A stretch of 55,959 nucleotides of DNA from Gracilibacteraceae bacterium. Lineage in GTDB: Bacteria > Bacillota > Desulfitobacteriia > Desulfitobacteriales > Syntrophobotulaceae. The stretch is taken from assembly GCA_031266805.1 (NCBI GenBank), contig JAISAH010000011.1:1-55959 (forward strand). The letters run 5' to 3'. The number at the start of each line of letters is the position of its first letter. Positions within the stretch are counted from its first letter, which is position 1. The position numbers were made by a program, and so were the translations under genes. Of this stretch, positions 7,842 through 41,238 are shown piece by piece. The notes below the pieces were generated by a model. The model ran no database searches. It had not been told where the DNA came from and worked only from the letters and a program-made list of their open reading frames with translations.

Positions 7842-7864
7842 AAGACCGAAAGGATGTGAGACTA

Positions 7865-8134
7865 ATGGCTCAGGTACTGGTGAATATCCGCATGGATGAA
7901 GATTTGAAAAAATCTATGGAACACACTTGCCAGTCTTTAGGTATGAACATGACCACGGCGTTCACAATTTTCGCGAAAAAGATGAGCCGCGAACAGCGCA
8001 TACCGTTTGAAGTGTCGGTTGACCCGTTTTACAGCGGCGCCAATATGGCGGCCATAGCCGAAGCGGCCAGACAGGTCGAACGCGGCCAAGTCGTTGAGAA
8101 AACGCTTGAAGAATTAGAGGCTCTGGATATATAA
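7865..8134 (+). CDS. RelB/DinJ-family antitoxin, orphan
   Basis: This 89-residue protein begins MAQVLVNIRMDEDLKKSMEH and has LGMNMTTAFTIFAKKM, the ribbon-helix-helix pattern of RelB/DinJ antitoxins. The ATG at 7865 has a better-placed ribosome site than the GTG nine bases earlier. Antitoxins of this type neutralise a RelE/YafQ-like RNase toxin and repress their own promoter. No toxin gene follows; the next gene is a broken BRO/DinD-type gene. A 70-bp piece of this gene is repeated at 8749–8818, which suggests that the toxin was lost by rearrangement. Confidence 0.8.
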   Translation: MAQVLVNIRMDEDLKKSMEHTCQSLGMNMTTAFTIFAKKMSREQRIPFEVSVDPFYSGANMAAIAEAARQVERGQVVEKTLEELEALDI

Positions 8135-8952: not shown

Positions 8953-9252
8953 TTAGAACCGTTCTCTGATCGGGGCAAAAACTTCGTCCTGCGTCAGCCA
9001 CTTGGTGTTCGGGTCGGCGGCCTCCTTCTCAGCTTCGGCCAGTTTAGCAAGGATGATTTGGTCGGAGATGTATTCTTCCGTTACCATGGCGAACGGAATT
9101 CTTCGCTCGCGCACCAGGGCTTTAAGACTTGACGCGATGTAGGTCGTCATGTTGAGGCCCATCTCATCCAGCATTTTTTCGGCCCGTTCTTTTGTTACGC
9201 CGTCCACGCGAATGGTTATTGCTTTGTCCGCCAGTGTTTTATTCGCCAACAT
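8953..9252 (-). CDS. RelB/DinJ-type antitoxin with decapitated toxin partner
   Basis: From ATG 9252 (AAGGAG six bases upstream) this encodes 99 residues: MLANKTLADKAITIRVDG, then MLDEMGLNMTTYIASSLKAL, a ribbon-helix-helix antitoxin pattern. An adjacent ATG at 9255 is also possible; the frame is open to 9303, but those residues have no ribosome site. The toxin that should follow survives only as a C-terminal fragment, so the antitoxin is now unneeded or may buffer a related toxin elsewhere. Confidence 0.8.
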   Translation of the reverse strand: MLANKTLADKAITIRVDGVTKERAEKMLDEMGLNMTTYIASSLKALVRERRIPFAMVTEEYISDQIILAKLAEAEKEAADPNTKWLTQDEVFAPIRERF

Positions 9253-9457
9253 CATCAACTCCTTTCTCATATGATGTATGCTATTATACAGCAAATAGCT
9301 CATTATTGCAATGCGCTTTTATCGCAGAATTCATTTCCGTCAACTCTTTAATTTCCCTCCGTAATTGCCGAAATAATATATGATTGCCGGAATAGCAGTA
9401 TTCTTGGGAATTGTCAAAAGTCGAAGCATTGGCTGAACGCGACCATCTCCCCCGTCA

Positions 9458-9649
9458 CTGTTGGCAAGACCGCCTAAGCGCCTGCGGCGCAAGGCGCTCT
9501 AGGCCCCGCTGCGGTCTCGACTATGCCGCTAAAGCGGCAGTCTCGTACCTGCACTGTTGGCAAGACCGCCTAAGCGCCTGCGGCGCAAGGCGCTCTAGGC
9601 CCCAGCACGGACTCGACTATGCCGCTAAAGCGGCAGTCTCGTACCTGCA
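9458..9649 (+). repeat. two tandem copies of a 96-bp dispersed repeat
   Basis: Units at 9458–9553 and 9554–9649 begin CTGTTGGCAAGACCGCC and end GTCTCGTACCTGCA. Each contains two self-complementary stretches, GCGCCTGCGGCGCAAGGCGC and GCCGCTAAAGCGGC. An inverted full copy lies at 11,421–11,516 and a truncated one at 53,994–54,027. No protein is encoded. The region 9304–9457 before it holds nothing recognisable. Confidence 0.92.
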
Positions 9650-9713
9650 TTCCGGGCTCGTCCCGGAATCCAAAAAATATGATGCAAGAATGGATTCCGG
9701 TTGACCACGGCGT

Positions 9714-9742
9714 TTGAAAACCTGACTTCGTTATGGTAAAAT
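9714..9742 (+). promoter_or_regulatory. promoter of a short RNA upstream of the dead TnpB
   Basis: TTGAAA (9714–9719), 17 bases, TAAAAT (9737–9742). Transcription would begin near 9749 and pass through the first palindrome into a terminator. Confidence 0.55.
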
Positions 9743-9748
9743 ATAGGC

Positions 9749-9827
9749 GATAATGTAACATTTTATCTAAAATGTTACATTGGCGCCGCGTTGCTGAGTT
9801 TATCAGGGTTTAGGCCCTGATTTTTTT
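9749..9827 (+). ncRNA. possible short terminated RNA
   Basis: Between the promoter and a textbook rho-independent terminator there is only about 80 bases and no frame with a ribosome site. The terminator has the stem ATCAGGG/CCCTGAT at 9802–9808 and 9815–9821 and then a run of T to 9827. The transcript would hold a long perfect hairpin (the palindrome at 9752–9781) plus the terminator stem. It could be an attenuated leader of the downstream tnpB-like gene or a separate small RNA. There is no expression evidence. Confidence 0.4.
9752..9781. promoter_or_regulatory. perfect 30-bp palindrome, copy 1
   Basis: Two 14-base arms, AATGTAACATTTTA and its exact complement, are separated by TC. It overlaps the predicted transcription start and could be an operator or an RNA hairpin. 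A second, nearly identical copy lies 145 bp downstream. Confidence 0.7.
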
Positions 9828-9897
9828 GTGCCCAAACGGCAAAAATCACGTCGCCGCCACCGGGGAAGATCCACGCAAACCGGGCGTTTTAGGCGTT

Positions 9898-9925
9898 ATG
9901 TAACATTTTAGATAAAGTGTTACAT
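9898..9925. promoter_or_regulatory. palindrome copy 2, in front of the dead TnpB start
   Basis: The arms ATGTAACATTTTA and TAAAGTGTTACAT around GA match copy 1 except at three positions. The shared bases continue as TTGGCG after both copies. It ends 30 bases before the ATG of the TnpB homologue, a position suited to repression of that gene. Confidence 0.7.
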
Positions 9926-9955
9926 TGGCGAACCTGATGAAACGCGGTGGCGGAC

Positions 9956-11092
9956 ATGGAAAAACGCTATAACTTTCGGCTTTATCCGACAAAAACGCAG
10001 GAAAAACAGATCCGGCGCAATTTTGGCTCCGTGCGGTTCGTCTACAACTATTTCCTGAACAAGCGCATAGAGCGCTTCAAGGCGGGCGGGAGTTTTTACA
10101 GCAACAGCGAGGCCTCGCGAGACCTGACGGCGCTGAAACAAACGGCGGGCTACGAGTGGCTCCGGGAAGCGGACTCCCATTCGTTGCAGAACGCGCTGAA
10201 AAAAATGGATCACGCCTATGCCGCCTTTTTCCGCCGGGTGAAGGAAAATCGCGGAGCGCCGGGGTTCCCGCGTTTTAAGCAGAAAAAACGGACTCGCCAG
10301 TCCTACACGAGCCAGTCTCAGGCGGGCCGAGCCTACATCGAACTCCGGGAGCGGGCGATAAAACTGCCGAAGCTGGGTCTGGTCAAATGCCGGGTGTCGC
10401 GGCAGGCGGAGGGCCGGATCGTCAACGCCAGCGTTTTTCAGGTCCCGAGCGGCAAATATTACGTCTCGGTCTGCTGCACCGATATCGAGCCGCGCGGGCT
10501 GCTGCGGACGGGTCAGGCGGTCGGGCTCCACCTCGGGATAAAGGATCTGGCTATCGCCTCCGACGGACGAACCTTTGCGAACGGCCGTTTTCTGGAAAAA
10601 GCGCAGAAGAAGATCTCCCGGCTGCAGCGGCGCCTGTCGCGAAAACCAAACGACGGCGCCAATCGGGAAAAAGCCCGGATAGCCTTGGCCAAAGCCCATG
10701 AGCGCGTGAAAAACCAGCGGACAGACGCCCTGCAGAAACTGACCACCCAAATGACGCGCGATTACGACCTGATCTGCGTCCGGGGCGAAGAACTGCGGAA
10801 GATGGCGCGAAAGAGACCGTTCGCCCGTTATCTGGCGGACGCCGCCTGGGGCGAGCTGGTCAGTCAGCTTCGGTACAAATGCGGCTGGTACGGCAAAACC
10901 CTCGCCGTGATCGACCCGAGTTACCCGAGTACGCGGATCTGCGGCGCCTGCGGCCACAAAAGCGGCGAGGCGGTCGCGGGAAAACAAACCGGAGTGTGGA
11001 CTTGCCCTGAGTGCGGGACGACGCACAACCGGGCGCGGAACGCGGCGGTGAACACCTTGGAGGAAGGGCGGCGGCTGCTCTCGACGGCCTGA
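9956..11092 (+). CDS. nuclease-dead TnpB homologue (TldR-like candidate)
   Basis: The 378-residue frame is an intact IS200/IS605-type OrfB: it starts MEKRYNFRLYPT, has the helix-turn-helix and WED-like N-terminus, a RuvC-like core, and a complete zinc ribbon (CGACG then CPECG). In active TnpB the RuvC centre is Asp in GIDLG, Glu in an IxxED-type strand, and Asp in HDRDxNAA. Here the first reads GLHLGIKDLA (Asp to His, codon CAC) and the third reads HNRARNAA (Asp to Ala, codon GCG). The second reads ICVRGEELRKM, where the aligned position is Arg, although a gapped alignment could place a Glu there. At least two of three catalytic residues are lost without any frameshift, as in TldR proteins, the RNA-guided repressors derived from TnpB. 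No tnpA lies nearby. Start: ATG 9956 with GGTGG upstream; GTG 9947 is possible. Confidence 0.85.
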   Translation: MEKRYNFRLYPTKTQEKQIRRNFGSVRFVYNYFLNKRIERFKAGGSFYSNSEASRDLTALKQTAGYEWLREADSHSLQNALKKMDHAYAAFFRRVKENRGAPGFPRFKQKKRTRQSYTSQSQAGRAYIELRERAIKLPKLGLVKCRVSRQAEGRIVNASVFQVPSGKYYVSVCCTDIEPRGLLRTGQAVGLHLGIKDLAIASDGRTFANGRFLEKAQKKISRLQRRLSRKPNDGANREKARIALAKAHERVKNQRTDALQKLTTQMTRDYDLICVRGEELRKMARKRPFARYLADAAWGELVSQLRYKCGWYGKTLAVIDPSYPSTRICGACGHKSGEAVAGKQTGVWTCPECGTTHNRARNAAVNTLEEGRRLLSTA

Positions 11093-11157
11093 CGGGAAAA
11101 GGGCGGCGGAGGGGCGATGAGTGAGTATTTAGAGGTGTCCATAATAGTACGGCCGGG

Positions 11158-11265
11158 CAGGCCGAAACTCAACGCCTGTGGAGAACGTGTCACTCGGCTT
11201 GCCGAGGCGTTCGGCGAAGCAGGAATTCCAATTACTGGGAACGCCAAATCCCGTATTTTGTCCTA
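11158..11265 (+). ncRNA. omegaRNA-like scaffold and possible guide
   Basis: About 65 bases after the tnpB-like stop the sequence has the motifs usual for the 3' end of IS605-family omegaRNA: CGCCTGTGGAG, a variable GC hairpin (CTCGGC/GCCGAG), then GCGAAGCAGGAAT and a short stem TTCC/GGAA. The guide would start after roughly 11,246, giving AAATCCCGTATTTTGTCC. The scaffold end is inferred by analogy and could be off by several bases. Confidence 0.5.
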
Positions 11266-11307
11266 AAAAACGCAATGATGAATCAAGGGCATTACAGCAA
11301 CCCTCCC

Positions 11308-11404
11308 TCGTCATTCCGGGCTTGTCCCGGAATCCAATGGCACCTTCTCTCCGTCATTCTGGGCTTGTCCCAGAATCCAAAAAACAACGGAGAGACATGG
11401 ATTC
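11308..11404. repeat. dispersed ATTCCGGG...CCCGGAAT hairpin repeats
   Basis: Units with arms ATTCCGGG/CCCGGAAT around CTTGT occur at 11,313–11,333 and, with compensated changes (ATTCTGGG/CCCAGAAT), at 11,357–11,377. A third, with loop CTCGT, follows the 96-bp repeats at 9649–9669. The compensatory changes indicate that the stem itself has been kept. All are intergenic and followed by short ATGGATTCCG pieces. Confidence 0.8.
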
Positions 11405-11420
11405 CGACATAAAGCCGGAA

Positions 11421-11516
11421 TGCAGGTACGAGACTGCCGCTTTAGCGGCATAGTCGAGACCGCAGCGTGGCCTAGAGCGCCTTGCGCCGCAGGCGCTTAG
11501 GCGGTCTTGCCAACAG
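11421..11516 (-). repeat. inverted full copy of the 96-bp repeat
   Basis: It is the reverse complement of the units at 9458–9649, with few differences. Together these copies flank the dead TnpB island in opposite orientation. The segment after it (11,534–11,569) carries a palindromic GC-rich piece also found at 51,676–51,710. Confidence 0.9.
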
Positions 11517-11641
11517 TGACGGATGGAATGGATGCGCGGGCGTAGGGGGCGGCGTCCTCGACGCCCCGCCTGACCCTGGGAGATGGATTCCGGCATAAAC
11601 CCGGAGTGACGTGAGAGGAATGGAGGCGAAAGGAGGGCAGC

Positions 11642-12679
11642 ATGAAAACCCGGAAAAACCATGTGATTCCAATATATATCATGGCAATCTTACTGCTCCT
11701 GCTGGCCGGATTACCCGCGTTGGCTGAGGACGAGGCGGCGAGCGCGCCGGCGCCCGCTGAAACGCCGGCAGTGGAAGAATCCGCGACCGAGCCGGGCGAA
11801 CAAACACCGGCAGCAGAAGAATCTGTAACCGAGCCAAGCGACCAGACGCCGCTGACGGAAGAACCCGCGACCGAGCCGGGCGAACAAACACCACTGGCGG
11901 AAGAACCGGCGACCGAGCCGGACGCACAAACACCGCTGGCGGAAGAACCGGCGACCGAACCGGATGAACAAGCGCCGGTGACGGAAGAACCAACGACCGA
12001 ACCGGACGAACAAATACCGCTGGCGGAAGAACCCGCGACCGAACCGGACGAACCAACACCGGCGACTGAAGAACCTGTAACCGAGCTAGGCGACCAGACG
12101 CCGGCGCCGGAAGAACCGGCGACCGGGACAGACGTACAAGCGCCAGTTGAAGGTGAACCCCTGACTGATCCGGAGGAAGAACTCGCGGCCCCGAACGGAC
12201 AAGCAGCGGAACCGCCGAATGTCATGGAAGTGCTGCTGCCTGACGAGATCCCGTTTGATATCGTGCTGTTCAACGGCCAAGGCTTCGTGACGTCGCCGGA
12301 ATTCCAGATCGTCAATCGCGGCCCGGACCCGATCCGGGCGGCCCTGCTGGACGCTCGCCTCACTCTTTCCGATCCGGAAGCCTTTTTCGTCCGGCCCGAT
12401 GAAAACCTGCCGAACGAGGGCAACAATATTCATCTGCGGCTGGTCTGCGTTTCCGGCGCGAAAACCGCGGCTGTCACACTGGGTACAGAGGGGAGCGGCG
12501 AGGTCTTCGCCTATGAGCTGGCCGGCGGAGAGTCCGGCTCCTTCCGGCTGGAGGGCGCCGTGAACGAGCGCGGGGACAAAGCCTGGGGCGATATTGACAT
12601 AAGCGTGTCCGTCCGCTTCGAATTGTCCGCGGCGGCGGTCGAAACAGAAGAAACAAAAGAAACAGACGAACCGAATTAA
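11642..12679 (+). CDS. secreted protein with Glu/Pro-rich 14-residue repeats
   Basis: The protein has 345 residues. A signal peptide (MKTRKNHVIPIYIMAILLLL, then ALA) is followed from about residue 45 to 170 by nine or so acidic repeats of the type EEPATEPDEQTPLA, which would form an extended stalk. Residues 185–330 form a beta-rich domain beginning VMEVLLPDEIPFDIVLFNGQ, a pattern seen in uncharacterised surface proteins that sit beside a second beta-rich secreted partner. There is no LPXTG motif or membrane anchor. It is the first of three surface genes in a row; the AGGAGG site lies seven bases upstream. Function unknown; a structural or adhesin-like surface component is the cautious guess. 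The repeat DNA is a 42-bp unit likely to vary in number between strains. Confidence 0.8.
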   Translation: MKTRKNHVIPIYIMAILLLLLAGLPALAEDEAASAPAPAETPAVEESATEPGEQTPAAEESVTEPSDQTPLTEEPATEPGEQTPLAEEPATEPDAQTPLAEEPATEPDEQAPVTEEPTTEPDEQIPLAEEPATEPDEPTPATEEPVTELGDQTPAPEEPATGTDVQAPVEGEPLTDPEEELAAPNGQAAEPPNVMEVLLPDEIPFDIVLFNGQGFVTSPEFQIVNRGPDPIRAALLDARLTLSDPEAFFVRPDENLPNEGNNIHLRLVCVSGAKTAAVTLGTEGSGEVFAYELAGGESGSFRLEGAVNERGDKAWGDIDISVSVRFELSAAAVETEETKETDEPN

Positions 12680-12693
12680 ACGGCAAAGGAGCG

Positions 12694-13218
12694 ATGATCA
12701 TGCCGGCAGGTAAAAACAAAATCATCATTATCGGGGCCGTCGCGGCGCTAGCAGTCATAGGGGCGCTGGTCGCCGTGATCATCCGCCTGACGGGCGCCCC
12801 GGCGGAACCGGTGGTCATAGGGGAGCGCAGCGCCGGGGTAGGGACGGTGGCCACGATCGAGAATATAGACGCCATCCGGCAGGCCCAAAGCGAGCCGGTG
12901 CAGGACGGCTACTACGCCAGCCGTATGAATGTGGAATGGTCGTTCCCTGACGGAACGCAGCCTTCACCGGACGCCTATGTGGCCAATTCAGAAAGCAATA
13001 CGCGCACGGTATATTTCACGGTGTTGCTGGACGAAACAGACGAATTGATCTATACCTCGCCGGACATACCCGTCGGCAGCCAGCTGACGGGCTTTGCCCT
13101 GGATAAAGCTTTGCCGAAGGGAGAATATCCCGCCGTGGCGGTGTATCACTTGCTGGACGACGACGGCAATGAATTGTCCACGGTTTCAGTTACGGTCAAG
13201 CTCTATATCATCAATTGA
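12694..13218 (+). CDS. membrane-anchored extracytoplasmic protein, unknown function
   Basis: The 174 residues have a short basic start, one transmembrane segment (IIIIGAVAALAVIGALVAVI, about 10–29), and an outside domain rich in beta strands that ends SVTVKLYIIN. It starts 14 bases after the preceding gene with AAAGGAG, so the two are co-transcribed. It has no lipobox, and the hydrophobic segment looks like an uncleaved anchor. I do not recognise the family; context suggests a partner or assembly factor for the secreted proteins on either side. Confidence 0.7.
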   Translation: MIMPAGKNKIIIIGAVAALAVIGALVAVIIRLTGAPAEPVVIGERSAGVGTVATIENIDAIRQAQSEPVQDGYYASRMNVEWSFPDGTQPSPDAYVANSESNTRTVYFTVLLDETDELIYTSPDIPVGSQLTGFALDKALPKGEYPAVAVYHLLDDDGNELSTVSVTVKLYIIN

Positions 13219-13303
13219 TATAGGTTGACATATACGCCGATACCGCAGCAGAGGAAGGAGAGCGGAACGGCATTATTATCATAGGAAGGAGGAGGCGAGC
13301 TGC

Positions 13304-13389
13304 CGGAGCGGGAAGCTCCGCTGGTTACCGGAACACGATCCGCAGTTATTTTGTAGCTGGGCGCGAGCGCAAATAATAAGCGCCGCGCG
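13304..13389 (+). promoter_or_regulatory. structured leader before the third surface gene
   Basis: The 192-base gap contains hairpin CGGAGC/GCTCCG (13,304–13,320) and a longer imperfect one pairing GCGCGAGCGC with GCGCCGCGCG (13,361–13,389). The second ends just before the AAAGGAG site of the next gene. No riboswitch class that I know matches. A TTGACA at 13,224 has no -10 box at the right distance. Confidence 0.35.
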
Positions 13390-13410
13390 AGAAGAAAGGA
13401 GAACTATTTC

Positions 13411-14529
13411 ATGAAACGTAAGTATATCGCGTTACTGCTGGCGGCGCTGATGCTGCTAAGTACGGCCCCGGCGGCTTTTGCCGCACCGCCGGAAACTCCC
13501 CCAGGCCCCACAGACCTTAATGGCAACGGCACCGTATTTTATATCGAATCAGAAATATACGAAGTTACTGTGCCAACAACCACTGCTTTAAATTTCACCA
13601 TTGATCCTCAAGGCGTTGCCTCAGTTGGATCAACTCCCGTACTTCTCAGCGAGCTACAGGGAGGCCGCATCATTCACAATACTCCGGCGATTGTCGTGAA
13701 CAATAGTTCTCGCTCGCTCAAAGTCACCGTTGCCCTTAAAGCGGCCACTGCCACCGGCAGTGGAGGAAATACCGCCACAGCGACGTTCATAGCGAAAGGC
13801 GCAAAAAGCGACGCAGATACCATCGCGGCTGTAACTACGGGTAGCGGTAATAACGTGCTGATTTATGCCGTGCCCTCCGCCGCGAATATCTCGGATGCCG
13901 GCGCCCCCTTTGCGCCGGCTGGCAAGGGGTATATACTCAAAGCGACTGATATCACTCTGGATTTCATCTTTGGACCCGCTGATTATCTCGTCACCAATGA
14001 CGGCACAATCGGGACCGAGCTTGTAGCAGGCACAGGGCACGGCACAGGCATTCAACTGGGCGGTTATGTGGACGAGACCGCGGACTGGACTCATTTCGCG
14101 GCCGAAGTGACTCCAAGCACTGTAAGCGTGGTAGCCAAGTTCACCTACGCTACGACTACTGCCACAGCCCCGGCGAGTCCTGAAAGCGGAATTTATGGAT
14201 TGGAAACGCCTTCGGGAGCTGAATCCTTGGAGCTGACCGTACCGGTCGGGTTCGCGGGGGGGCTTACCGGCTCGCTGTCCACAGCCAGTGGGGCCAACGT
14301 AAACCAAACAGTTCCCTTTAACTTTGACGGTAAAACTGTAAACACCGCCTATGTATATTATGACAGCACGAAACTGGCCGCGAATGCTATTAACGCCTCG
14401 CTTATATTTGACGACGCTCAAGGAACGGTTGGCATCAAGGGAAATTGGTCTACAGCCGGCACCGTTGATATCACGTTCAAACTTACCGGCAGCGACGTCG
14501 TTTACACTTTAACAGTCGAAACAACTTAA
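13411..14529 (+). CDS. secreted beta-rich surface protein
   Basis: The 372 residues begin with a clear signal peptide (KRKYIALLLAALMLLSTAPA, cleavage after AFA). The mature protein is rich in Thr, Ala, Gly and Val and reads as repeated beta strands; it has no cysteine, LPXTG or transmembrane anchor. The segment EIYEVTVPTTTALNFTIDPQ followed by VVNNSSRSLKVTVALKA resembles uncharacterised secreted proteins of Clostridia that accompany genes like its two upstream neighbours. Its AAAGGAG site and isolated leader, and the strong hairpin after it, suggest a highly expressed product. A fibre or surface-layer-like component is possible but unproven. Confidence 0.75.
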   Translation: MKRKYIALLLAALMLLSTAPAAFAAPPETPPGPTDLNGNGTVFYIESEIYEVTVPTTTALNFTIDPQGVASVGSTPVLLSELQGGRIIHNTPAIVVNNSSRSLKVTVALKAATATGSGGNTATATFIAKGAKSDADTIAAVTTGSGNNVLIYAVPSAANISDAGAPFAPAGKGYILKATDITLDFIFGPADYLVTNDGTIGTELVAGTGHGTGIQLGGYVDETADWTHFAAEVTPSTVSVVAKFTYATTTATAPASPESGIYGLETPSGAESLELTVPVGFAGGLTGSLSTASGANVNQTVPFNFDGKTVNTAYVYYDSTKLAANAINASLIFDDAQGTVGIKGNWSTAGTVDITFKLTGSDVVYTLTVETT

Positions 14530-14652: not shown

Positions 14653-17235
14653 ATGAGAAAAAATCAGTACGCGGAAATTCTGACTCTGCTCCAAACGCTC
14701 AGAGAAGCCCATACCGAACTGCGAAAGCAATCCGCTCGCGGGGCGACGGTTAATTTGCTGGCCGACTGCCAGGACTTTGCTTTGCGGGTTGGCCAATATA
14801 TAGAAGAAATTGAGGGCGAAGGCACGGAGACCGTCGCCTTGTTGATAGAATACTACAAACTCGTCTATCAGGCGAGCGCGGCGGGCGGCGGCGCGGATCA
14901 GGCTGGACGCTTGGAAGATCAACTGGCCAAAATTGAAAACGCGGTTCGGAGCGAGCTGAGGCCGAATAAATTGGAGATCGTGTTTTTCCCTTATAAATAC
15001 GCGATGGCGGACAGTTTGCGCAGCATTTGGGAGGCGGCGCTGGCCGACCCGCAATGCGACGTGTATATCTGCCCTATTCCGTATTACGAACGCCAGCCAA
15101 GCGGCGCCTTCGGACCCATGCGCTGCGAGGCGGATTTGTTTCCCCGTGATCTGCCGCTAGTGGACTGGCGGGAATATGACGCGGCAGCCCGGCGCCCGGA
15201 CATCATATACATCCACAACCCCTATGACGAAAACAACTATGTCACGAGCGTCCACCCGGCCTTTTACAGCGCGCGGCTGAAGCGTTGCACGGATCTGCTG
15301 GTATATTCCCCTTACTTTGTCAGTTATGACGATAGTATCCCGGAGCAATACGCGCTGACTGCCGGAGTAGTTAACGCCGCGAAAGTGGTGTTGCAGTCGG
15401 AAAAATTGCGGCAAAACTATATTCGGGCCAGCCGTCTCCTGGCGCGGGAATATGATCTTGGGGAGCAAGCCACAGATTGGGCGGAGAAATTCGTGGCGCT
15501 GGGTTCACCGAAATTTGACAGCCTGCTCGGCGCGGGATGGGGCGGCGTCAGTATACCCGAAGATTGGCGGCGCTTAACGACCGGGAAAAAAGTCGTTCTG
15601 TACAACACAAGCATCGGCGCGATCCTGTCCGGTGATCAAGACTATCTGCGCAAATTGCGCGATGTTCTCACCGTGTTCAGCCGGCGCGCGGATCTGGTCC
15701 TGCTGTGGCGGCCGCATCCCCTCAGCGAAGCCGCGTACCGCTCCATGCGCCCGCGCCTGCTCGCCGCGTATGAGCGGATCGTCACGGACTATCGGCGCGA
15801 AAGCTGGGGTATCTACGACGACAGCCCTGATCCGCGCCGGGCCGTACTGATCAGTGACGCTTATTACGGCGATCTTAGTTCGTTGGTGGCCCTGTACGCC
15901 GTTACGGGCAAACCGATGATGCTGCAAAATCGGTTCATCCGCTCCGATTCCGCCTGGGACGCCATTATGTTCAACGATCTTTATGACGACGGGCAGTACT
16001 TCTGGTTCACGCCCATTGATTTTAACGCGCTGTTCCGTATGGACAAACAAACCTGGCAGGCGGAATACCGCGGGAGTATTCCGCTGGAACATGGTGATGG
16101 CGCCTATCTGTTCGGCGCCATCACCCAATGCGAGGGCAAACTGTACTTGCCTCCGGGCACCGCCCGGAGGCTGGGTGAATATGATATTAAGACCGGCGCG
16201 ATCAGAGCGGTCGACCTCGGTCTGGACGAATCCAAGAAATACAGTATAAAATTTGCGGACAGCGTCGTCTACGGATCATCCCTGTTTTTAATCGGTTGCG
16301 CCTATCCGGCCATCGTCGAATATGATACCCGAACAGGAAAAACTCATCAATATGACGATTGGCTGAAACCGCTGGCGCATATGGACGCCAATACGCATAG
16401 CGCTTATTTTGCTTACGGGCGGGCGGTAAAGAATGAGATCATTATCGGAACATGCCGCGCCGGCGCCGTTCTCGTATTTAATATGGACGACGGTAATTCT
16501 AAAATTTTCCAAACAGACGCTCATAAAGACGGTTTTTACGATGTTTGCTGGGACGGCGATAAATACTGGTTCGCGCCGCTGGCGGATCCCAGCTGCGTGA
16601 TCAGTTGGGATAAAGAAACTCGAGAGTATACAGAATACGCGAATTTCCCGCCTGGTTTCGCCGCCGATCCTTACGCGCGCATATGCCGCGCCGGCGGCTT
16701 TATCTGGTTTTTCCCCTTGAATTCCAATATGACGCTGAGGATCGATCCGTGCAGCGGAAAGACCGAAACCGCGGCGCCGTTCATGCGCGAGTGCGAACGA
16801 GGAGAAGACGAACCCCGCTCGTACAGTTTGAACTATTTGTTTGCCGCCGCTATGGACGGCGTCGTCTATGCGCACACAGGCAAGAGCAACACTTTTATTT
16901 CCTACGATACCGAGACTGGTTTGCGGCGGGAGACGCCAATTTTGCTCTCTGCGGAGGATCGGGAGAAATGCATGGACTATTGCCTGCGCAGCCGCCGCGA
17001 TCAGGATTTGCCCGTCAGCATTGGTGATTGCGCTTTCCGGGAGAACACAGTTTTCCATCTGACGGATTTTCTGGATCGGCTGCTCGGCGGTTCGCCGGAG
17101 ATAAAAGGCGACATTCGCGCCGCGCAGCTCCGGATCTGCCGCGATAATATAGTTCATGCCGACGGCACGGCCGGCGCCGCCATTCACGCTGAGATGAAAC
17201 GCTTGGTCCTAGCCGGCGCGGAGATGTCATCGTGA
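14653..17235 (+). CDS. CDP-glycerol transferase-like protein with C-terminal beta-propeller
   Basis: The 860 residues are not a standard single enzyme. Residues 1–95 are helical. About 105–470 form a GT-B-like domain akin to CDP-glycerol:glycerophosphotransferases (TagF/TagB type), with LLWRPHPLSE and DAYYGDLSSLVALYAVTGKP, the usual phosphate- and nucleotide-site patterns. About 480–800 consist of repeated 45–55-residue blades with Trp/Tyr-rich strands (KYWFAPLADP, GFIWFFPLNS), a likely beta-propeller. It is the first gene of the glycan locus and overlaps gmhA by four bases. A transferase adding (glycero)phosphate or a sugar to a surface polymer, with a carbohydrate-binding propeller, fits, but the substrate is unknown. 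Confidence 0.65.
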   Translation: MRKNQYAEILTLLQTLREAHTELRKQSARGATVNLLADCQDFALRVGQYIEEIEGEGTETVALLIEYYKLVYQASAAGGGADQAGRLEDQLAKIENAVRSELRPNKLEIVFFPYKYAMADSLRSIWEAALADPQCDVYICPIPYYERQPSGAFGPMRCEADLFPRDLPLVDWREYDAAARRPDIIYIHNPYDENNYVTSVHPAFYSARLKRCTDLLVYSPYFVSYDDSIPEQYALTAGVVNAAKVVLQSEKLRQNYIRASRLLAREYDLGEQATDWAEKFVALGSPKFDSLLGAGWGGVSIPEDWRRLTTGKKVVLYNTSIGAILSGDQDYLRKLRDVLTVFSRRADLVLLWRPHPLSEAAYRSMRPRLLAAYERIVTDYRRESWGIYDDSPDPRRAVLISDAYYGDLSSLVALYAVTGKPMMLQNRFIRSDSAWDAIMFNDLYDDGQYFWFTPIDFNALFRMDKQTWQAEYRGSIPLEHGDGAYLFGAITQCEGKLYLPPGTARRLGEYDIKTGAIRAVDLGLDESKKYSIKFADSVVYGSSLFLIGCAYPAIVEYDTRTGKTHQYDDWLKPLAHMDANTHSAYFAYGRAVKNEIIIGTCRAGAVLVFNMDDGNSKIFQTDAHKDGFYDVCWDGDKYWFAPLADPSCVISWDKETREYTEYANFPPGFAADPYARICRAGGFIWFFPLNSNMTLRIDPCSGKTETAAPFMRECERGEDEPRSYSLNYLFAAAMDGVVYAHTGKSNTFISYDTETGLRRETPILLSAEDREKCMDYCLRSRRDQDLPVSIGDCAFRENTVFHLTDFLDRLLGGSPEIKGDIRAAQLRICRDNIVHADGTAGAAIHAEMKRLVLAGAEMSS

Positions 17236-17822
17236 ACTACGAGCAGGCGATAAAAAACTATTTGGACGCGGCGCGGGCCATGCTGGAAAAGATCGACGCC
17301 GCGGCGGTCAGCGCCGTGATGAACGCCCTTAACGCGGCCAGACGGCGCGAAGCGGCGATCTATATATTCGGCAACGGCGGCAGCGCGGCCACCGCTTCGC
17401 ATTTCGCGAGCGATTTCAACAAGGGCGTATCGGAGCATTTGGCGCAGCCGTTCCGCTTTATCTGCCTGAACGACAATATCGCTACTGTTATGGCCATCGC
17501 CAATGACATCGGCTATGACGCGGTGTTTGAGTTTCAGCTGCGCGGAAGGATCACCGGCCGCGATCTCGTGATTGGCATTTCCGGGAGCGGCAACTCCGCA
17601 AACGTGCTGAAGGCGGTCGAACTGGCAAAAGCGTCGGGCGCCGCAACTATCGGCCTGACGGGATATGACGGCGGCAAGCTGGCAAAACTAGTGGATCTGT
17701 CGCTGCACATTCCCGTGATGAGTATGCAGATCACGGAAGACGCGCATATGATTTTTGATCACCTGATGATGGCGGTGTTCTGTAAAACTCTGTGCGGGAT
17801 CGACCATATTAAAGAGGAATAG
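17232..17822 (+). CDS. gmhA: phosphoheptose isomerase
   Basis: GmhA converts sedoheptulose 7-phosphate into D-glycero-D-manno-heptose 7-phosphate. The 196-residue SIS-domain protein has the family motifs FGNGGSAATASHFASDFNKG, GISGSGNSANVLKA and MQITEDAHMIFDHLMM, with the zinc or phosphate ligands in place. It starts at GTG inside the stop of the previous gene (GTGA overlap) and is followed directly by hddA. The context with kinase, phosphatase and guanylyltransferase makes heptose synthesis the clear role, rather than another SIS reaction. Confidence 0.93.
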   Translation: MNYEQAIKNYLDAARAMLEKIDAAAVSAVMNALNAARRREAAIYIFGNGGSAATASHFASDFNKGVSEHLAQPFRFICLNDNIATVMAIANDIGYDAVFEFQLRGRITGRDLVIGISGSGNSANVLKAVELAKASGAATIGLTGYDGGKLAKLVDLSLHIPVMSMQITEDAHMIFDHLMMAVFCKTLCGIDHIKEE

Positions 17823-17823
17823 G

Positions 17824-18819
17824 ATGATAATCACGCGCACCCCCACGCGGGTCAGCTTTTGCGGCGGCGGCAGCGATTTGCCCGCCTTTTACAAAAAACA
17901 TGGCGGCGTGGTGCTGTCAGCCGGTCTGAATAGATATGTCTATCTGTCCGTCCACCCATACTTTTACCCGGACAGGCTGATTTGCAAATATTCGCGGAAC
18001 GAACCCGTCAATGATCCCTCCGAACTGGAGCATCCCATTTTCCGCGTTTTGCTGGAGCGCTTCGGGCTAAACGGAGTGGAGATCACCAGCACGGCTGACG
18101 TCCCCGCCGGAACAGGGCTTGGCTCATCCAGCTCCTTCACGGTCGGGCTTTTGCATATCCTTTACGCCTATACCGGCAAATATGTCTCGGCTGAGACTCT
18201 GGCCGCCGAAGCCTGCCATACGGAAATAGACGTGCTCGGCGAGCCGGTCGGCAAGCAAGACCAATACGCGGCGGCGTTCGGCGGCCTCAATGTCTACCGT
18301 TTCAACAAAGACGGCGGCGTCGCGGTAGAACCCGTGATCATGTCGCCGGAGGCCAAAGAGCGCATGGAGGGCAATCTACTGATGTTCTACACGGGCGATC
18401 TGCGCTCGGCTTCGCGTATTCTCTCCGAGCAAAGCCAAAACATCGCCATTGACAGCGACAAGGAAAAGGCCCAGCTGGAAATCTGCCGGCTGACCGATGA
18501 GCTTCACCGGGAATTGATCAAAGACAATATCGACGCGCTCGGCCCGATACTGCACGCGGGCTGGGAACAGAAGCGCCAACTGGCCGGCGGGATCACGAAT
18601 CCGCTGATCGACAAAGCATACGAAGCCGCGCTTGCTACGGGCGCGACCGGCGGCAAACTGCTCGGCGCGGGCGGCGGCGGGTTTCTTTTGTTTTATGTGC
18701 CGGAGCATAGGCACAATTCTGTGAAAAACGCGCTTTCGGATCTGGCCTATATGGATTTCGGTTTCAGCCGCGGCGGCTCGGCTGTGATATATGTGGGCGA
18801 CAAGCCGAAAAGGAGTTGA
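17824..18819 (+). CDS. hddA: D-glycero-D-manno-heptose 7-phosphate kinase
   Basis: HddA is a GHMP kinase phosphorylating C1 of heptose 7-phosphate. The 331-residue sequence starts MIITRTPTRVSFCGGGSDLP, the N-terminal pattern of HddA, and has the ATP loop PAGTGLGSSSSF and the C-terminal GGKLLGAGGGGFLLFY. The start is one base after the gmhA stop, with GAGG upstream. The related LPS enzyme HldE is of another fold, so the route here is to a GDP-activated alpha-heptose. Confidence 0.92.
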   Translation: MIITRTPTRVSFCGGGSDLPAFYKKHGGVVLSAGLNRYVYLSVHPYFYPDRLICKYSRNEPVNDPSELEHPIFRVLLERFGLNGVEITSTADVPAGTGLGSSSSFTVGLLHILYAYTGKYVSAETLAAEACHTEIDVLGEPVGKQDQYAAAFGGLNVYRFNKDGGVAVEPVIMSPEAKERMEGNLLMFYTGDLRSASRILSEQSQNIAIDSDKEKAQLEICRLTDELHRELIKDNIDALGPILHAGWEQKRQLAGGITNPLIDKAYEAALATGATGGKLLGAGGGGFLLFYVPEHRHNSVKNALSDLAYMDFGFSRGGSAVIYVGDKPKRS

Positions 18820-18821
18820 GG

Positions 18822-19751
18822 ATGAAAATCTTAGTGACCGGGGGCGCGGGCTTTATCGGCAGTCATTTGGCTGAGGCCTTGCTTGAGCGCGGTGGTCATG
18901 TAGTGTGTGTCGACAATCTCCGTCTGGGGAGCAAGGATCTGATACGGCATTGTTTTGACGATCCCCGTTTTGAGTTTTATGAGTTTGACGTCTGCGACAC
19001 GGAAAAACTTGGCGCCCTGTTCGCCGAGCGCGCCTTTGACCGCGTGTACCATCTCGCGGCAAACTCGGATATCCAGAAAAGCGGCGCAGACCCGGCTATC
19101 GATTATCACGACACTTTTCTCACCACGGTGGCAATCCTTGACGCAATGAGAAAGCATAATGTTAAAGAACTGTTGTTCGCCTCCACTTCCGCGGTGTACG
19201 GTGACAAGAGGACCTTATTGCGGGAGGACGCAGGGGCCTTAAGCCCCATTTCCTACTACGGCGCGGCCAAGCTGGCGTCGGAGGCCTTTATCTCCGCCTA
19301 CGCGGCGATGAACGGTCTGGCGGTAAATATTATTCGTTTTCCAAATGTAGTGGGAGAAAGGCTGACGCACGGGGCGATATTTGATTTTATCGCCAAACTG
19401 AAAGCGAACCCGCGGGAATTGGAAATTCTTGGTAACGGCAGGCAAGATAAGCCGTATATCTATGTCGCGGATCTGGTCGCCGCGATGCTGGCGATGGAAT
19501 ATACCGCAGGGGTGGAGATTTTCAACGCCGGGGTCGAGACGTCGACGACAGTCACGCGTATTGCCGACATCGTATGTGAGGAAATGGGTTTAAAAAACGT
19601 GGAGTATAAATTTACCGGCGGAGAGGTCGGGTGGGCCGGCGACGTGCCGAGATTTCAGTATGATTTGGCAAAAATCCACGCGTTCGGCTGGACGGCTGGG
19701 CACACGTCCGACGAGGCTGTACGGCTGGCGGTCAGGGGTTCAATAAGATGA
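18822..19751 (+). CDS. NAD-dependent sugar epimerase/dehydratase
   Basis: This extended SDR of 309 residues starts MKILVTGGAGFIGSHLAEAL (NAD-binding GxxGxxG). It has FASTSAVYG (the Thr/Ser of the active site) and the catalytic YYGAAK (Tyr-x-x-x-Lys). ATG 18,822 has AAAGGAG eight bases upstream; the TTG at 18,816 is less likely. Its position between hddA and hddC suggests that it acts on the heptose nucleotide (C4 or C6 epimerisation), but UDP-glucose 4-epimerase-type activity on a hexose cannot be excluded. Confidence 0.85.
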   Translation: MKILVTGGAGFIGSHLAEALLERGGHVVCVDNLRLGSKDLIRHCFDDPRFEFYEFDVCDTEKLGALFAERAFDRVYHLAANSDIQKSGADPAIDYHDTFLTTVAILDAMRKHNVKELLFASTSAVYGDKRTLLREDAGALSPISYYGAAKLASEAFISAYAAMNGLAVNIIRFPNVVGERLTHGAIFDFIAKLKANPRELEILGNGRQDKPYIYVADLVAAMLAMEYTAGVEIFNAGVETSTTVTRIADIVCEEMGLKNVEYKFTGGEVGWAGDVPRFQYDLAKIHAFGWTAGHTSDEAVRLAVRGSIR

Positions 19752-21100
19752 GAGCGGTAATTCTCGCGGGCGGCAAGGGAACGCGAATAGGGTGTCTTTA
19801 CTCTGAGATGCCGAAACCGATGATACCGGTTTGCGGTAAGCCGATTTTGCAGCATCAGGTTGAGACGTTGACGAAGCAGGGCATTACCGATATTACATTG
19901 ATTGTCGGCTACAAAGCGGAGGTTATCCAAAGGCATTTTGGCAATGGCGCGGCGTTCGGCGCAAGGATCGACTATATTGCCGAGGATGAACCTCTCGGTA
20001 CAGGCGGCGCGCTCACGCTGCTGCCGCGCGAGGATACACTGGCGCTGTTCGGAGATCTGTACTGCGAGGTTGATTTCGAGCGGCTGATCCGTTTTCACAG
20101 AGAGAAACAAGCTTATATAACCTTGTTCGTTCACCCGAACAGCCATCCGCGGGACAGCGATATTGTCGCGGTCGACGGGGAAAACCGCGTGACCGCTTGG
20201 TACTCGAAGAACGAGAGCCGCGGCGAACTGCGGAACCTTGTCAGCGCGGGGATCTATGTTTTCAGCGGCGACGCTCTGCCCGCGGGCAAGGCGGTTAAGC
20301 GGGATTTGGAGCGCGATTTGATTTTGCCCGCGCTGCCGGAGGGAAAGGTTTATGCCTACCGTTCGGCGGAGTATGTGAAGGATATGGGGACGCCGGAGCG
20401 GCTGACCGCCGTGGAAAGGGATATAATGGGCGGCGTGGCCGCGGCGCGGAGTTTGTGCGGCAAGCAGCGGGCGGTGTTTCTCGACCGCGACGGCACGATC
20501 AACGAACGGCGCGGTCTGATCAATTCGCCGGAGCAGGTCGAGCTGATACCGGGCGCCGCCCGGGCGATCGCGGCGCTCAACAATTCGCCGTTTCTGGCGA
20601 TTTGCGTGACGAATCAGCCCGTTGTGGCGCGGGGAATGGTTACGCTTCCGCGGCTGGACGCGATCCACGCCCGGCTGGACAGTTTGCTCGGCGGCGAGGG
20701 AGCGTATCTGGACGACTTGTTTTTCTGTCCGCATCATCCAGACGGGGGATATCCGGAGGAAGCGCCGGAGTATAAAGTCGAATGCGGCTGCCGCAAGCCC
20801 AAGCCCGGCCTGTTGATCGAGGCCGCTAACCGATACAATATTGATTTGAGCCGCTCGTATATGATCGGCGACAGCGCGGCGGACGTCGCGGCAGGCAAGG
20901 CGGCGAGGTGCGCGACAGTTGGGGTGCGGACAGGCGAGGGACTGGCAGACGGCAAATATCAGGCCGTTCCTGATTTTGTTTGCGATAACCTGACAGAAGC
21001 GGTGGAACAAATTCAGCAACAAGATGTGAATGTCTCAAGAGTGAAAACTATCGGCGACGGCGCGATCATCGAAGGCGAGACGGGAGGCGACAAACATTAA
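19748..21100 (+). CDS. hddC-gmhB: heptose-1-P guanylyltransferase fused to heptose bisphosphate phosphatase
   Basis: The 450-residue frame joins two steps of the pathway. Residues 1–230 are a sugar-1-phosphate nucleotidyltransferase (MRAVILAGGKGTRIG, then LGTGGALTLLP) matching HddC, which makes GDP-D-glycero-D-manno-heptose. Residues 240–430 are a HAD phosphatase of the GmhB type: FLDRDGTIN (nucleophile Asp), the zinc loop CPHHPDGG...ECGCRKPKPG, and IGDSAADV. GmhB acts before HddC, so the fusion couples consecutive reactions. The last 20 residues (SRVKTIGDGAIIEGE) do not belong to the phosphatase and copy part of a downstream acetyltransferase gene. Overlaps the epimerase by four bases. Confidence 0.88.
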   Translation: MRAVILAGGKGTRIGCLYSEMPKPMIPVCGKPILQHQVETLTKQGITDITLIVGYKAEVIQRHFGNGAAFGARIDYIAEDEPLGTGGALTLLPREDTLALFGDLYCEVDFERLIRFHREKQAYITLFVHPNSHPRDSDIVAVDGENRVTAWYSKNESRGELRNLVSAGIYVFSGDALPAGKAVKRDLERDLILPALPEGKVYAYRSAEYVKDMGTPERLTAVERDIMGGVAAARSLCGKQRAVFLDRDGTINERRGLINSPEQVELIPGAARAIAALNNSPFLAICVTNQPVVARGMVTLPRLDAIHARLDSLLGGEGAYLDDLFFCPHHPDGGYPEEAPEYKVECGCRKPKPGLLIEAANRYNIDLSRSYMIGDSAADVAAGKAARCATVGVRTGEGLADGKYQAVPDFVCDNLTEAVEQIQQQDVNVSRVKTIGDGAIIEGETGGDKH

Positions 21101-22070
21101 AAACATTATTTATGGACTTGGCAGCTATTTTTGGCGGCATATTGAATTTTTTGACGATGTTATTAAAGATACAGTCGCGTTTTGCGACGCTAACAAAAAC
21201 AGTTTTGAATTTGGGAAAATATTGGAACGCCCGTTGATTTCGCCCAGCCAGTTGCCGGGGATGATGGAAGAAGCGGGGGGAGGTATTTGTTTATACATTG
21301 CGGCTCCGAATTTCTATGCCGAAATATTTGATTTTTTAACCAATGATCTGAACATCAGCGCGGAAATTATAGAACCACTCAACGCGCCCGCGGTATCAGG
21401 CGAATTGCTGGACGTGAAGCGAAAGTTTTACGCGGGCGCGGACATCGCAAATCCGATAAGAGCGGAGGCGATTCAAGGCGCGCTTCTTTTGCCGGATCGG
21501 ATCACGGCCTTGCGGTATTTGCCGCGGGGTGGGATCGCCGCCGAAGTCGGGGTAGCTTACGGAGACTTCAGCGAAAGGATCCTTGCCCTAATGAAACCGG
21601 CGAAATTTTACGCCGTAGACTATTTTTCTCAAGCCGACCCGTTTGCCAAATTTTGGGGTCGAGATGATTTTAGGCGTGACAATATGCCGCATCAGCAATG
21701 GTATGAGCGTAAGTTCAAAAAAGAAATAGAGAACGGGATACTTGAAACCCGGCAGGGGCTGTCCTGGGAATGTATGGCTGATTTTCCGGATGATTATTTT
21801 GATTATGTTTATCTTGACGCGGCGCATGATTTTTACAGCGTAAAAAAAGATATTTCTGTTCTGATCAACAAGGTCAAAGACGGCGGATATATTCAATTTA
21901 ACGATTACTGTTGTGGGCCGCTGCTCGCCGCCTGGGGGTACGGAGTGCTCGCGAATGTCAACACTTTTATCAACAACGGATCGCATAAGGTCAAATATTT
22001 TTGTCTCAGCCCGATCGGACATTACGATATTGTGACAGAAGTGCGTAAAAATATTGCGAAAGGGCGGTAA
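21096..22070 (+). CDS. class I methyltransferase with N-terminal Rossmann module, probable AUU start
   Basis: The frame is open from inside the end of hddC-gmhB and reads KNIIYGLGSYFWRHIEFFDD from the very start, the shared glycan-locus module, but contains no ATG, GTG or TTG until TTG 21,222. An ATT at 21,096 lies eight bases after GGGAGG and aligns with where the Met should be, so an AUU start (or a recent ATG-to-ATT change) is proposed, giving 324 residues. Residues 145–310 are a Methyltransf_24-type domain: GGIAAEVGVAYGDFSERIL (motif I) and DYVYLDAAHDFYSVKKDI. It probably methylates a sugar hydroxyl; the substrate is unknown. Confidence 0.7.
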   Translation: MKNIIYGLGSYFWRHIEFFDDVIKDTVAFCDANKNSFEFGKILERPLISPSQLPGMMEEAGGGICLYIAAPNFYAEIFDFLTNDLNISAEIIEPLNAPAVSGELLDVKRKFYAGADIANPIRAEAIQGALLLPDRITALRYLPRGGIAAEVGVAYGDFSERILALMKPAKFYAVDYFSQADPFAKFWGRDDFRRDNMPHQQWYERKFKKEIENGILETRQGLSWECMADFPDDYFDYVYLDAAHDFYSVKKDISVLINKVKDGGYIQFNDYCCGPLLAAWGYGVLANVNTFINNGSHKVKYFCLSPIGHYDIVTEVRKNIAKGR

Positions 22071-22077
22071 TCCGATT

Positions 22078-22938
22078 ATGTATGGCAGAACCCGCTGGCA
22101 TTTAGCGCAGGCCCGCGACCGGGAAATCGTCATTTGGGGAACAGGGCGGGATGTGAGAGTGTCTGACCATATGAGGAGTTTTCGGCCTTCTCCTTCGTTT
22201 TATGTATCAAAAGAATATAAAGAATTGCGCTCATTCAACGGATTACCCGTAAAATCCAAAGAAGTATTGCGACCCGAGAAGCATTACGTTCTGATAGGAT
22301 CGTCTCTGTACAGTGAGGGGATTGCGGCGGAAGAACTGTGCCAGTCGGGTTTCAAAGAGGGGGTGGATTTCTATAACTGTATGGCTGTTGTACTGCCGTA
22401 CAGGATAAAGGCGGGTAGCCATTTAGATATTCCGTTGGGTCGCAACACTTATTACTCTCGTAATGAATCAGTATATGACACATTTGTTAGCGAAATCGGC
22501 TCATTTACATCTATCTCCCATACGGCGCAATTCGTGGATGACCACTCTTTAAGCCGTTTGTCAACGGCGAATCTTACGGGCATAAGCCCTGAATATTTCC
22601 CCAATCCGGCATCTAATGCCGCTACAGCCGGCGGGAAATACAAAATAAAAATAGGAAACGACGTATGGATCGGCGCCAACGCCGTTGTGAACGCTTCAAG
22701 GGTGAAAATTATCGGCGACGGCGCGATCATCGGCACGGGGGCGGTCGTGCTTGAAGACGTGCCCCCTTTCGCCGTGATGGTCGGTATTCCCGCAAGAGTG
22801 AAAAAGTATCGTTTTTCGGAACGAGAGATTGAAATCCTTCTCAAAGTTAAATGGTGGGATTGGGATGACAAGACACTTGCGGAAAACACAGAACTGATCG
22901 AAAACCCACGGGCGTTCTTTGAGCGGTTCGGGGCATAG
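22078..22938 (+). CDS. CatB-type O-acetyltransferase with N-terminal Rossmann module
   Basis: The protein has 286 residues from ATG 22,078; a TTG 24 bases upstream would add eight residues with no support. Residues 10–105 are the small Rossmann-like module (DREIVIWGTGRDVRVSDHMR, then HYVLIGSSLYSEGI). Residues 120–260 are a left-handed beta-helix of hexapeptide repeats with KIGNDVWIGANAVV and IGTGAVVLEDVPPFAVMVGI. The C-terminal LLKVKWWDWD is typical of xenobiotic/CatB acyltransferases. It likely acetylates a sugar of the surface glycan with acetyl-CoA. A 37-base piece of this gene is duplicated at the end of hddC-gmhB. Confidence 0.82.
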   Translation: MYGRTRWHLAQARDREIVIWGTGRDVRVSDHMRSFRPSPSFYVSKEYKELRSFNGLPVKSKEVLRPEKHYVLIGSSLYSEGIAAEELCQSGFKEGVDFYNCMAVVLPYRIKAGSHLDIPLGRNTYYSRNESVYDTFVSEIGSFTSISHTAQFVDDHSLSRLSTANLTGISPEYFPNPASNAATAGGKYKIKIGNDVWIGANAVVNASRVKIIGDGAIIGTGAVVLEDVPPFAVMVGIPARVKKYRFSEREIEILLKVKWWDWDDKTLAENTELIENPRAFFERFGA

Positions 22939-22959
22939 CGGTTATTTGTGAGGCGGTGT

Positions 22960-23673
22960 ATGAAACACAAAGCTATCTTAATGGCGGCGGGCAGAGGTAC
23001 GCGGATCAGCCGCACGATAGGGGATTCTTGCAAATGCACGCTTGATATAGGCGGGATCCCGCTCATCCGGCACACGGTCGCCATGCTGTTAAAACACGGC
23101 ATAGAAACCCATCTGGTGGTCGGTTTTCATAAAGAGCTGATTTTCGCGGCTTTGGCCGGTCTGCCCGTGACCTTCCATGAGAATGTGTTTTACTCTGTGA
23201 CTAATTCCCTCGCCTCGCTGTGGTGGGCCAAAGAGGAACTCACGGGAGACTCTGTCATTCTCGGCAACGCCGACGTGTTCTGGGAGGAAGATATTCTTTC
23301 CGTCTTGCTGCGTGAAACGCGCGATTGCGTCATGCTCAGCGATTCCAGTCGCGTGGAGCAGGGTGATTACCTTTTCCATGTGCGGGAGGGCAGGATCACC
23401 GCCTTCGGCAAGGGACTGGACTGCCACCGGGCCAACTGCGAATATGTGGGGCTGGCGCATATACAGGGCGAATTAATCTCCAAGTGCAAAGCGCGGTTGG
23501 AAGCCATGATCGCCGCCCAGCGCCACGGAAGCTGGTGGGAGCAGATTTTGTATGATATGATCGCCGAGCGCCCTGTCTGGGCCGTCGATATTGCCGGGCA
23601 ATTCTGGGCGGAGATCGACTTTATTGAGGACTATAACCGCATTTTGGAATATGTGAAAAAGAGGGGCGCATGA
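22960..23673 (+). CDS. sugar/choline-phosphate nucleotidyltransferase
   Basis: The 237-residue protein has MAAGRGTRISRTIGDSCKCT, the nucleotide-binding N-terminus of the NTP_transferase family. SVILGNADVFWEED (metal-binding Asp) and FWAEIDFIEDYNRI near the end resemble LicC/PntC-like cytidylyltransferases more than RmlA. The start ATG 22,960 follows GAGGCGG; GTG 22,948 is an alternative. It would supply a CDP-activated small group (phosphocholine, a phosphonate or glycerol-like) for decoration by the CDP-glycerol-transferase-like enzymes in the locus. That link is inference. Confidence 0.75.
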   Translation: MKHKAILMAAGRGTRISRTIGDSCKCTLDIGGIPLIRHTVAMLLKHGIETHLVVGFHKELIFAALAGLPVTFHENVFYSVTNSLASLWWAKEELTGDSVILGNADVFWEEDILSVLLRETRDCVMLSDSSRVEQGDYLFHVREGRITAFGKGLDCHRANCEYVGLAHIQGELISKCKARLEAMIAAQRHGSWWEQILYDMIAERPVWAVDIAGQFWAEIDFIEDYNRILEYVKKRGA

Positions 23674-26490: not shown

Positions 26491-26513
26491 ATCTGCAATA
26501 GAGGTGTTGTTAT

Positions 26514-27377: not shown

Positions 27378-27424
27378 GCGTGAGCAGTGCAAGCGCGCTG
27401 GCATAAACATGAGGGTATATAAAT

Positions 27425-28612: not shown

Positions 28613-28638
28613 TTAAATTAACAGGATGTGTGAGTAAT

Positions 28639-29664: not shown

Positions 29665-29705
29665 AGAATCGTCAAGAGAATGTCTAATAAGAGGAGATAA
29701 AGCGG

Positions 29706-41116: not shown

Positions 41117-41238
41117 GCGGGGCACGGATTCGTAGGCCCCTACGGAAATCCGTTTCAAATATGGTGCGGGGCGGGTCGTAACCTGCCCTACGGTGTTTGG
41201 CTGTAGGCATTGATTCTGAATGTTTAGAGGTATCCTTG

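Follow-up and report, generated by a model that had tools for sequence, protein, structure and literature searches.

A nuclease-dead TnpB beside a surface-glycan operon as a putative RNA-guided repressor of rival glycan loci in Clostridia

Why should a transposon-type nuclease that has lost its active site be kept intact upstream of a surface-glycan operon? The question is raised by a tnpB gene at 9956-11092 (+ strand) in a stretch of 55,959 nucleotides from a Gracilibacteraceae bacterium (GCA_031266805.1, contig JAISAH010000011.1); the whole of this stretch is referred to below as the window. An earlier note, made from the sequence alone, had proposed that the gene encodes a candidate TnpB-like nuclease-dead repressor (TldR). 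The analysis presented here suggests, with a probability of about 0.72, that it is an RNA-guided repressor of the TldR type that silences rival glycan loci and has been kept by gut-type Clostridia.

Loss of the catalytic triad

The open reading frame (ORF) was intact and encoded 378 amino acids from its ATG, or 381 from an upstream GTG at 9947. All three parts of a TnpB were recognised by Pfam (HTH_OrfB_IS605, OrfB_IS605 and Cas12f1-like_TNB), the NCBIfam model guided_TnpB scored 303 bits, and alignment with the solved ISDra2 TnpB (8bf8) covered 368 residues (3-370). The Cys pairs of the zinc ribbon were kept, so that the uninterrupted TnpB with a zinc ribbon described in the earlier note was borne out. 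The intact D/E/D triad of active IS200/IS605 TnpB was absent; relative to ISDra2, D191 was replaced by H192, E278 by R276 and D361 by A360. The catalytic loss claimed previously therefore stood for all three RuvC residues but needed correction at RuvC-III, where the catalytic Asp is the second one of the HDRD motif (here Ala); the additional Asp of this motif was likewise altered (N358). A predicted structure had a mean predicted local distance difference test score (pLDDT) of 82, and its top matches in the PDB were TnpB structures. One of these, 8ex9, was matched over 174 columns at 2.5 A; global superposition was poor (root-mean-square deviation about 19), and the domain arrangement in the model is therefore unreliable. 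In agreement with the earlier note, the neighbouring genes that were tested included no tnpA-like ORF.

A second copy in the same genome (G000), on contig C128, shared 92% amino acid identity and the same lesions; the duplicated block takes in the flanking repeats.

A dead clade and its conserved partner

The dead TnpBs formed a single clade of seven members in five genomes: the window copy and C128 (G000), L005 (G074), L006 together with L065, a second copy in the same genome (G075), L008 (a Clostridiales metagenome-assembled genome) and L083 (G222); G074 and G075 are both Lachnospiraceae. A branch supported at 100/100 separated all seven proteins from the other relatives in the tree, which were intact. 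The RuvC-I Asp was replaced by H, Q or R in every dead member and the RuvC-II Glu by Arg, while the RuvC-III Asp was either Ala or lost through deletion of the region. Orthologues with restored D/E/D residues, or relaxed selection, had been named beforehand as signs of a dying transposon gene. No such orthologue was found, every close relative having lost these residues, and the intact copies were under purifying selection: the ratio of non-synonymous to synonymous substitution rates (dN/dS) for four intact pairs was 0.19 (window/C128), 0.13 (L005/L006), 0.16 (L006/L065) and 0.11 (L005/L065), the last two having near-saturated dS. Searches of phage, plasmid and viral contigs recovered active or distant TnpBs only and no close relative of the dead clade.

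The dead genes also shared a neighbour. Comparison of neighbourhoods identified a conserved partner gene in the window at 14653-17235 (+; 860 amino acids), which opens the glycan operon; its homologue was the first gene after the omegaRNA in C128, L005, L006, L065, L008 and L083. The surface-protein operon that the earlier note had placed directly downstream of tnpB is present in the window (11642-14529), but is specific to this copy; these secreted-protein genes (11642-12679, 12694-13218 and 13411-14529) were absent between dead tnpB and partner at the other six loci. Neither G130 nor G345, both of them sampled genomes in which a dead TnpB is lacking, yielded a homologue of the partner. The 860-residue protein belonged to no Pfam or NCBIfam family; it carried a WRPHPL motif resembling CDP-glycerol transferases. 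A profile search with the partner against PDB sequences returned nothing, and its structural model (pLDDT 55) was too poor to serve as a query.

OmegaRNA, guides and their targets

Alignment and folding of relatives placed an omegaRNA scaffold of three helices at 11146-11249 (+), downstream of the dead tnpB. Seven of its 20 predicted pairs showed compensatory changes among relatives; a search of Rfam gave no match. The scaffold is followed by a putative guide, CCCGTATTTTGTCCTAAAA (11250-11268, +), the exact 5' boundary of which was inferred by comparing omegaRNA ends. An initial guess, AATTACTGGGAACGCCAAAT, matched only the two copies themselves; it lay too far 5', and the boundary was shifted when omegaRNA ends were compared across relatives. 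The seed at 11251-11262, CCGTATTTTGTC (codons P-Y-F-V), matches paralogues of the partner on contigs C128 and C73. In the window, C128 and L008 (two tandem copies) the scaffold was followed by CCGTATTTTGT, with a variant, CCGTATTTTAT, in L083, and in L005, L006 and L065 by AATCCRTATGATAAT. Both types correspond to codons of the partner family, P-Y-F-V/I for CCGTATTTTGT and N-P-Y-D-N for AATCCRTATGATAAT.

The tandem arrangement in L008 (3746-4010) comprised two omegaRNA 3' ends with different guides, both reading I-P-Y-F-V codons, after one degenerate dead tnpB; this is a small natural multi-guide array.

Guides were compared with partner paralogues elsewhere in the same genome, each match being evaluated against 2000 dinucleotide shuffles. 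The L005 guide matched C129 of G074 exactly (17/17; no shuffle reached this length), as did the L065 guide its target C3 in G075, which is the partner gene of L006 (17/17; 0/2000). The L006 guide matched both C2a and C2b of G075 (15/15 each; 0/2000 and 2/2000 respectively), and the window guide matched the C128 and C73 paralogues over 12/12 positions (1/2000). All matched sites were in the sense orientation and in codon phase 0, at the codons HNPYDN or IPYF. These two target motifs are about 31 codons apart, yet TACAT, TATAT or TTCAT preceded every site, from which a target-adjacent motif (TAM) of TWYAT was inferred. Across G074 and G075, all matches to guide 20-mers at three mismatches or fewer (<=3) fell in omegaRNAs of dead tnpB or in the partner gene family, and reversed 20-mer patterns had no match in either genome. 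Guide and target also covaried, in that A at guide position 6 accompanied A in the target and the G of the L065 guide accompanied G in its target. The window, L005, L006 and L065 guides were mismatched to their own cis genes, L006 by a single mismatch only. In the window, site comparison placed the equivalent of the target in the partner gene at 15308-15321 (+; CCCCTTACTTTGTC), which the guide does not match because of seed mismatches and an altered TAM position.

Judged on sequence, the window ORF is thus a TldR by every tested feature, namely a lost triad, an omegaRNA, a TAM-adjacent guide match and a stable non-transposon partner. Conserved omegaRNAs, guides matching paralogues of the partner and the sharing of this neighbour across the other dead loci lend support to the repressor proposed in the earlier note.

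Putative invertible upstream regions

At L005, L006 and L065, inverted repeats of approximately 30 bp enclosed 84 bp directly upstream of the dead tnpB. The 84-bp segment contained a promoter, TTGCAA-17-TATGAT, and faced the dead tnpB in L006; at L005 and L065 it had the opposite orientation. A serine recombinase was present at L005 and L006; at L065 there were the repeats and the inverted segment only.

The window has a different arrangement. A probable sigma-70-like promoter (TTGAAA-17-TAAAAT with extended TG; 10/12 consensus matches) lies at 9714-9742 (+), directed towards the dead tnpB. It is followed by a palindromic site, ATGTAACATTTTATCTAAAATGTTACAT, with core TC (9753-9780), an intrinsic terminator, ATCAGGG-TTTA-GGCCCTGAT-TTTTTT (9802-9827, +), and a second palindromic site in inverted orientation with core GA (9898-9925). 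Repeat comparison identified both sites, and these bracket a putative invertible terminator. No recombinase was found near this module. A guide directed at a promoter motif shared near the palindromes (TTGCGTTTTGTGACC) was considered and dropped, there being only about 10 nt behind the idea.

Modules of about 174 bp (window 9753-9925) recurred in G000, where there were about 17 such sites or pairs, on contigs C12, C14, C30, C59, C69, C93, C102, C108 (two), C115, C128, C136, C149 and others. Each layout comprised a pair of 28-bp palindromic sites whose 2-bp cores were inverted, in many cases with a GC-rich terminator between the sites and a promoter beyond them, and several adjoined genes beginning with a signal peptide. 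In the C14 copy (L032) the terminator was flipped relative to the promoter. The palindrome pair had been considered as a miniature inverted-repeat transposable element, which was dropped since the recurrent promoter-outside, terminator-inside layout and the inverted cores suggest switch modules; together they resemble a set of invertible terminators spread across the genome. Separately, a dispersed intergenic repeat of approximately 96-120 nt (CACTGTTGGCAAGACCGCC...) flanked the dead tnpB block in inverted orientation (9438-9672 and 11398-11536).

Proposed mechanism and alternative explanations

These observations can be accommodated by a TnpB that would have given up nuclease activity and retained its omegaRNA and RNA-guided DNA binding. 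The omegaRNA, produced from the 3' end of tldR, would bear a guide against a run of codons that is conserved among paralogues of the glycan gene opening the operon. With a phase-variable locus switched on, the TldR-omegaRNA complex would bind rival glycan operons within their first gene, some 550-620 nt in and beside a TWYAT-like TAM. The guide has mRNA sense and so would pair with the template strand, which is the orientation in which dCas12a best blocks elongation; RNA polymerase would be obstructed in a dCas12a-like manner, and expression would be confined to one glycan programme.

A number of observations weigh against silencing of this kind. L008 lacked its N-terminus and was frameshifted, while L083 lacked the zinc ribbon; this looks like decay in those two lineages. 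The C128 guide matched its own cis gene at 12/12 positions, a case in which strict silencing in trans fails and which calls for either autoregulation or a recent duplication. Both L008 guides were one mismatch off the only full-length paralogue found, which was not significant. The guide-target match was weak in G076 and absent in G222, where a prediction written beforehand was not confirmed and no second paralogue was found in the 1.6-Mb assembly. The match in the window's own genome was short (12 nt), and a genome-wide search of G000 with an 18-mer guide was by itself near background; the G000 match carries weight because it falls on homologous codons. The assemblies were also fragmented.

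The alternative that survives best, although it is unlikely, is that the gene is an IS605-type tnpB that has lost its nuclease and is eroding, the omegaRNA tails being flanks of an old insertion site. Two of the seven members were truncated or frameshifted, as described above, there was no tnpA nearby, and the window's genome contained two copies in a duplicated block with its flanking repeats, all of which speak for this reading. Set against this, five full-length members share the same three lesions at dN/dS of 0.11-0.19; the dead proteins form one clade, the omegaRNA covaries and the guide allele follows the target allele. The flank of an old insertion would, moreover, run on into the gene, yet the match ends after 12-17 nt.

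It is slightly less probable again that a TldR-type repressor is present but acts chiefly by feedback on the operon to which it belongs and less on targets in trans. The cis match of C128 and the single mismatch between the L006 guide and its cis gene would be expected on those terms, but the window, L005 and L065 guides fit trans paralogues far better than the cis gene. Action of the omegaRNA or dead TnpB on transcripts, either as antisense or through RNA binding, is very improbable, given that the TAM-like flank is constant at the sites and that a guide of mRNA sense is unable to pair with the mRNA, which leaves the template strand of the DNA as its sole partner. Hardly credible is a nuclease still cleaving through alternative catalytic residues: the His, Arg or Gln at RuvC-I is polar, but that position varies, RuvC-II is Arg and RuvC-III Ala, one member lacks RuvC-III entirely, and guides matching the locus itself and its paralogues would cut the chromosome.

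Returning to silencing of rival loci in trans, the genomic position of the targets suggests what might be controlled. Targets without a tldR of their own in G074 (C129) and G075 (C2a and C2b) lay downstream of flagellin (identified by Pfam), and the target contig of G076 had a flagellin motif upstream on the same strand; no flagellin motif was present in the window or contig C73. Given this position beside flagellin, the tldR-less targets resemble flagellin-linked glycosylation loci. In G075 the matches formed a chain, from the L065 locus to the L006 locus and from there to the two flagellin-linked loci. Since guides match conserved codon motifs of the whole paralogue family, one RNA could silence several rival loci. 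There is perhaps an even chance that this amounts to mutual exclusion, guided by RNA, among phase-variable operons for surface or flagellar glycans, in which the dead-TnpB guide of each switchable operon would silence the first gene of its rivals, and inversion at one locus would reset the sugar coat displayed. If so, RNA-guided repression derived from transposon nucleases would govern glycan choice besides flagellin identity, and DNA inversion and guide-RNA silencing would be combined in one circuit. With guide, TAM and targets all defined, the idea lends itself to direct testing in laboratory E. coli.

Comparison with known systems

The earlier note had regarded a dead TnpB in a Clostridial context as new. 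This does not hold in full: Clostridial csrA-associated TldRs of Oscillibacter and Flavonifractor are chromosomal nuclease-dead TnpBs with a guide RNA (PMC13418256, doi 10.1038/s41564-026-02355-x), with an upstream hin-type invertase and an inverton of approximately 120 bp, and with target sites that lie within fliC ORFs; for several loci, cross-targeting of homologous surface genes is predicted, and cross-targeting of fliC homologues is reported (PMC13418256). The present loci resemble these in combining a dead TnpB and guide RNA with in-ORF targets. As regards invertase and inverton the picture is mixed, with inverted repeats around 84 bp at L005, L006 and L065, a serine recombinase at L005 and L006, and the terminator module in the window. 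They differ in that partner and target are the 860-residue glycan-operon gene rather than flagellin, and in that two codon motifs are matched. Pattern searches around the tldR loci examined found neither a CsrA-like nor a flagellin ORF, flagellin being near the targets instead. The csrA-TldR subgroup is delimited by csrA and/or fliC within 3 kb, and the present loci are set apart from it on gene content.

As described in the same paper, the fliC-associated TldR of Enterobacter prophages is a dead TnpB whose adjacent gene has a homologue at another location that is silenced via a TAM-adjacent guide match (PMC13418256). The target in the present case is in coding sequence, not in a promoter, and close relatives were lacking from phage and viral contigs. 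Active IS200/IS605 TnpBs (ISDra2, and L007 of Lacrimispora) are alike in fold, domain order and the omegaRNA at the 3' end, and unlike in that the dead proteins have lost all RuvC residues, have a fixed non-transposon neighbour and show no tnpA. A functional parallel may be drawn with UpxZ of Bacteroides, a protein inhibitor of antitermination that causes cross-inhibition among phase-variable capsule loci. In both cases a locus-encoded regulator heads a phase-variable polysaccharide operon and would silence rivals, and L008 has a NusG/KOW (LoaP-like) antiterminator gene (2283-2918) directly upstream of its degenerate dead tnpB; the agent proposed here differs in being RNA-guided DNA binding.

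Gene content of the window

Domain searches delimited the surface-glycan operon that follows the partner at 17232-33871 (+). Its genes encode a SIS isomerase, a GHMP kinase, an epimerase, a nucleotidyltransferase-HAD fusion, GT2 glycosyltransferases and methyltransferases, together with a CDP-glycerol transferase-like gene. Of the genes between tldR and partner, that at 11642-12679 (+) encodes a secreted repeat-rich protein. Downstream of the operon (36818-45366) were two tandem subtilase proteins of 1432 and 1389 amino acids, the first with CWB2 cell-wall domains and the second fitting S8 protease and SlpA-type S-layer models. Upstream of the dead tnpB were two RelB-type antitoxin genes (7856-8134 and 8953-9303) with no obvious toxin; part of the latter recurs beside the dead tnpB on C128.
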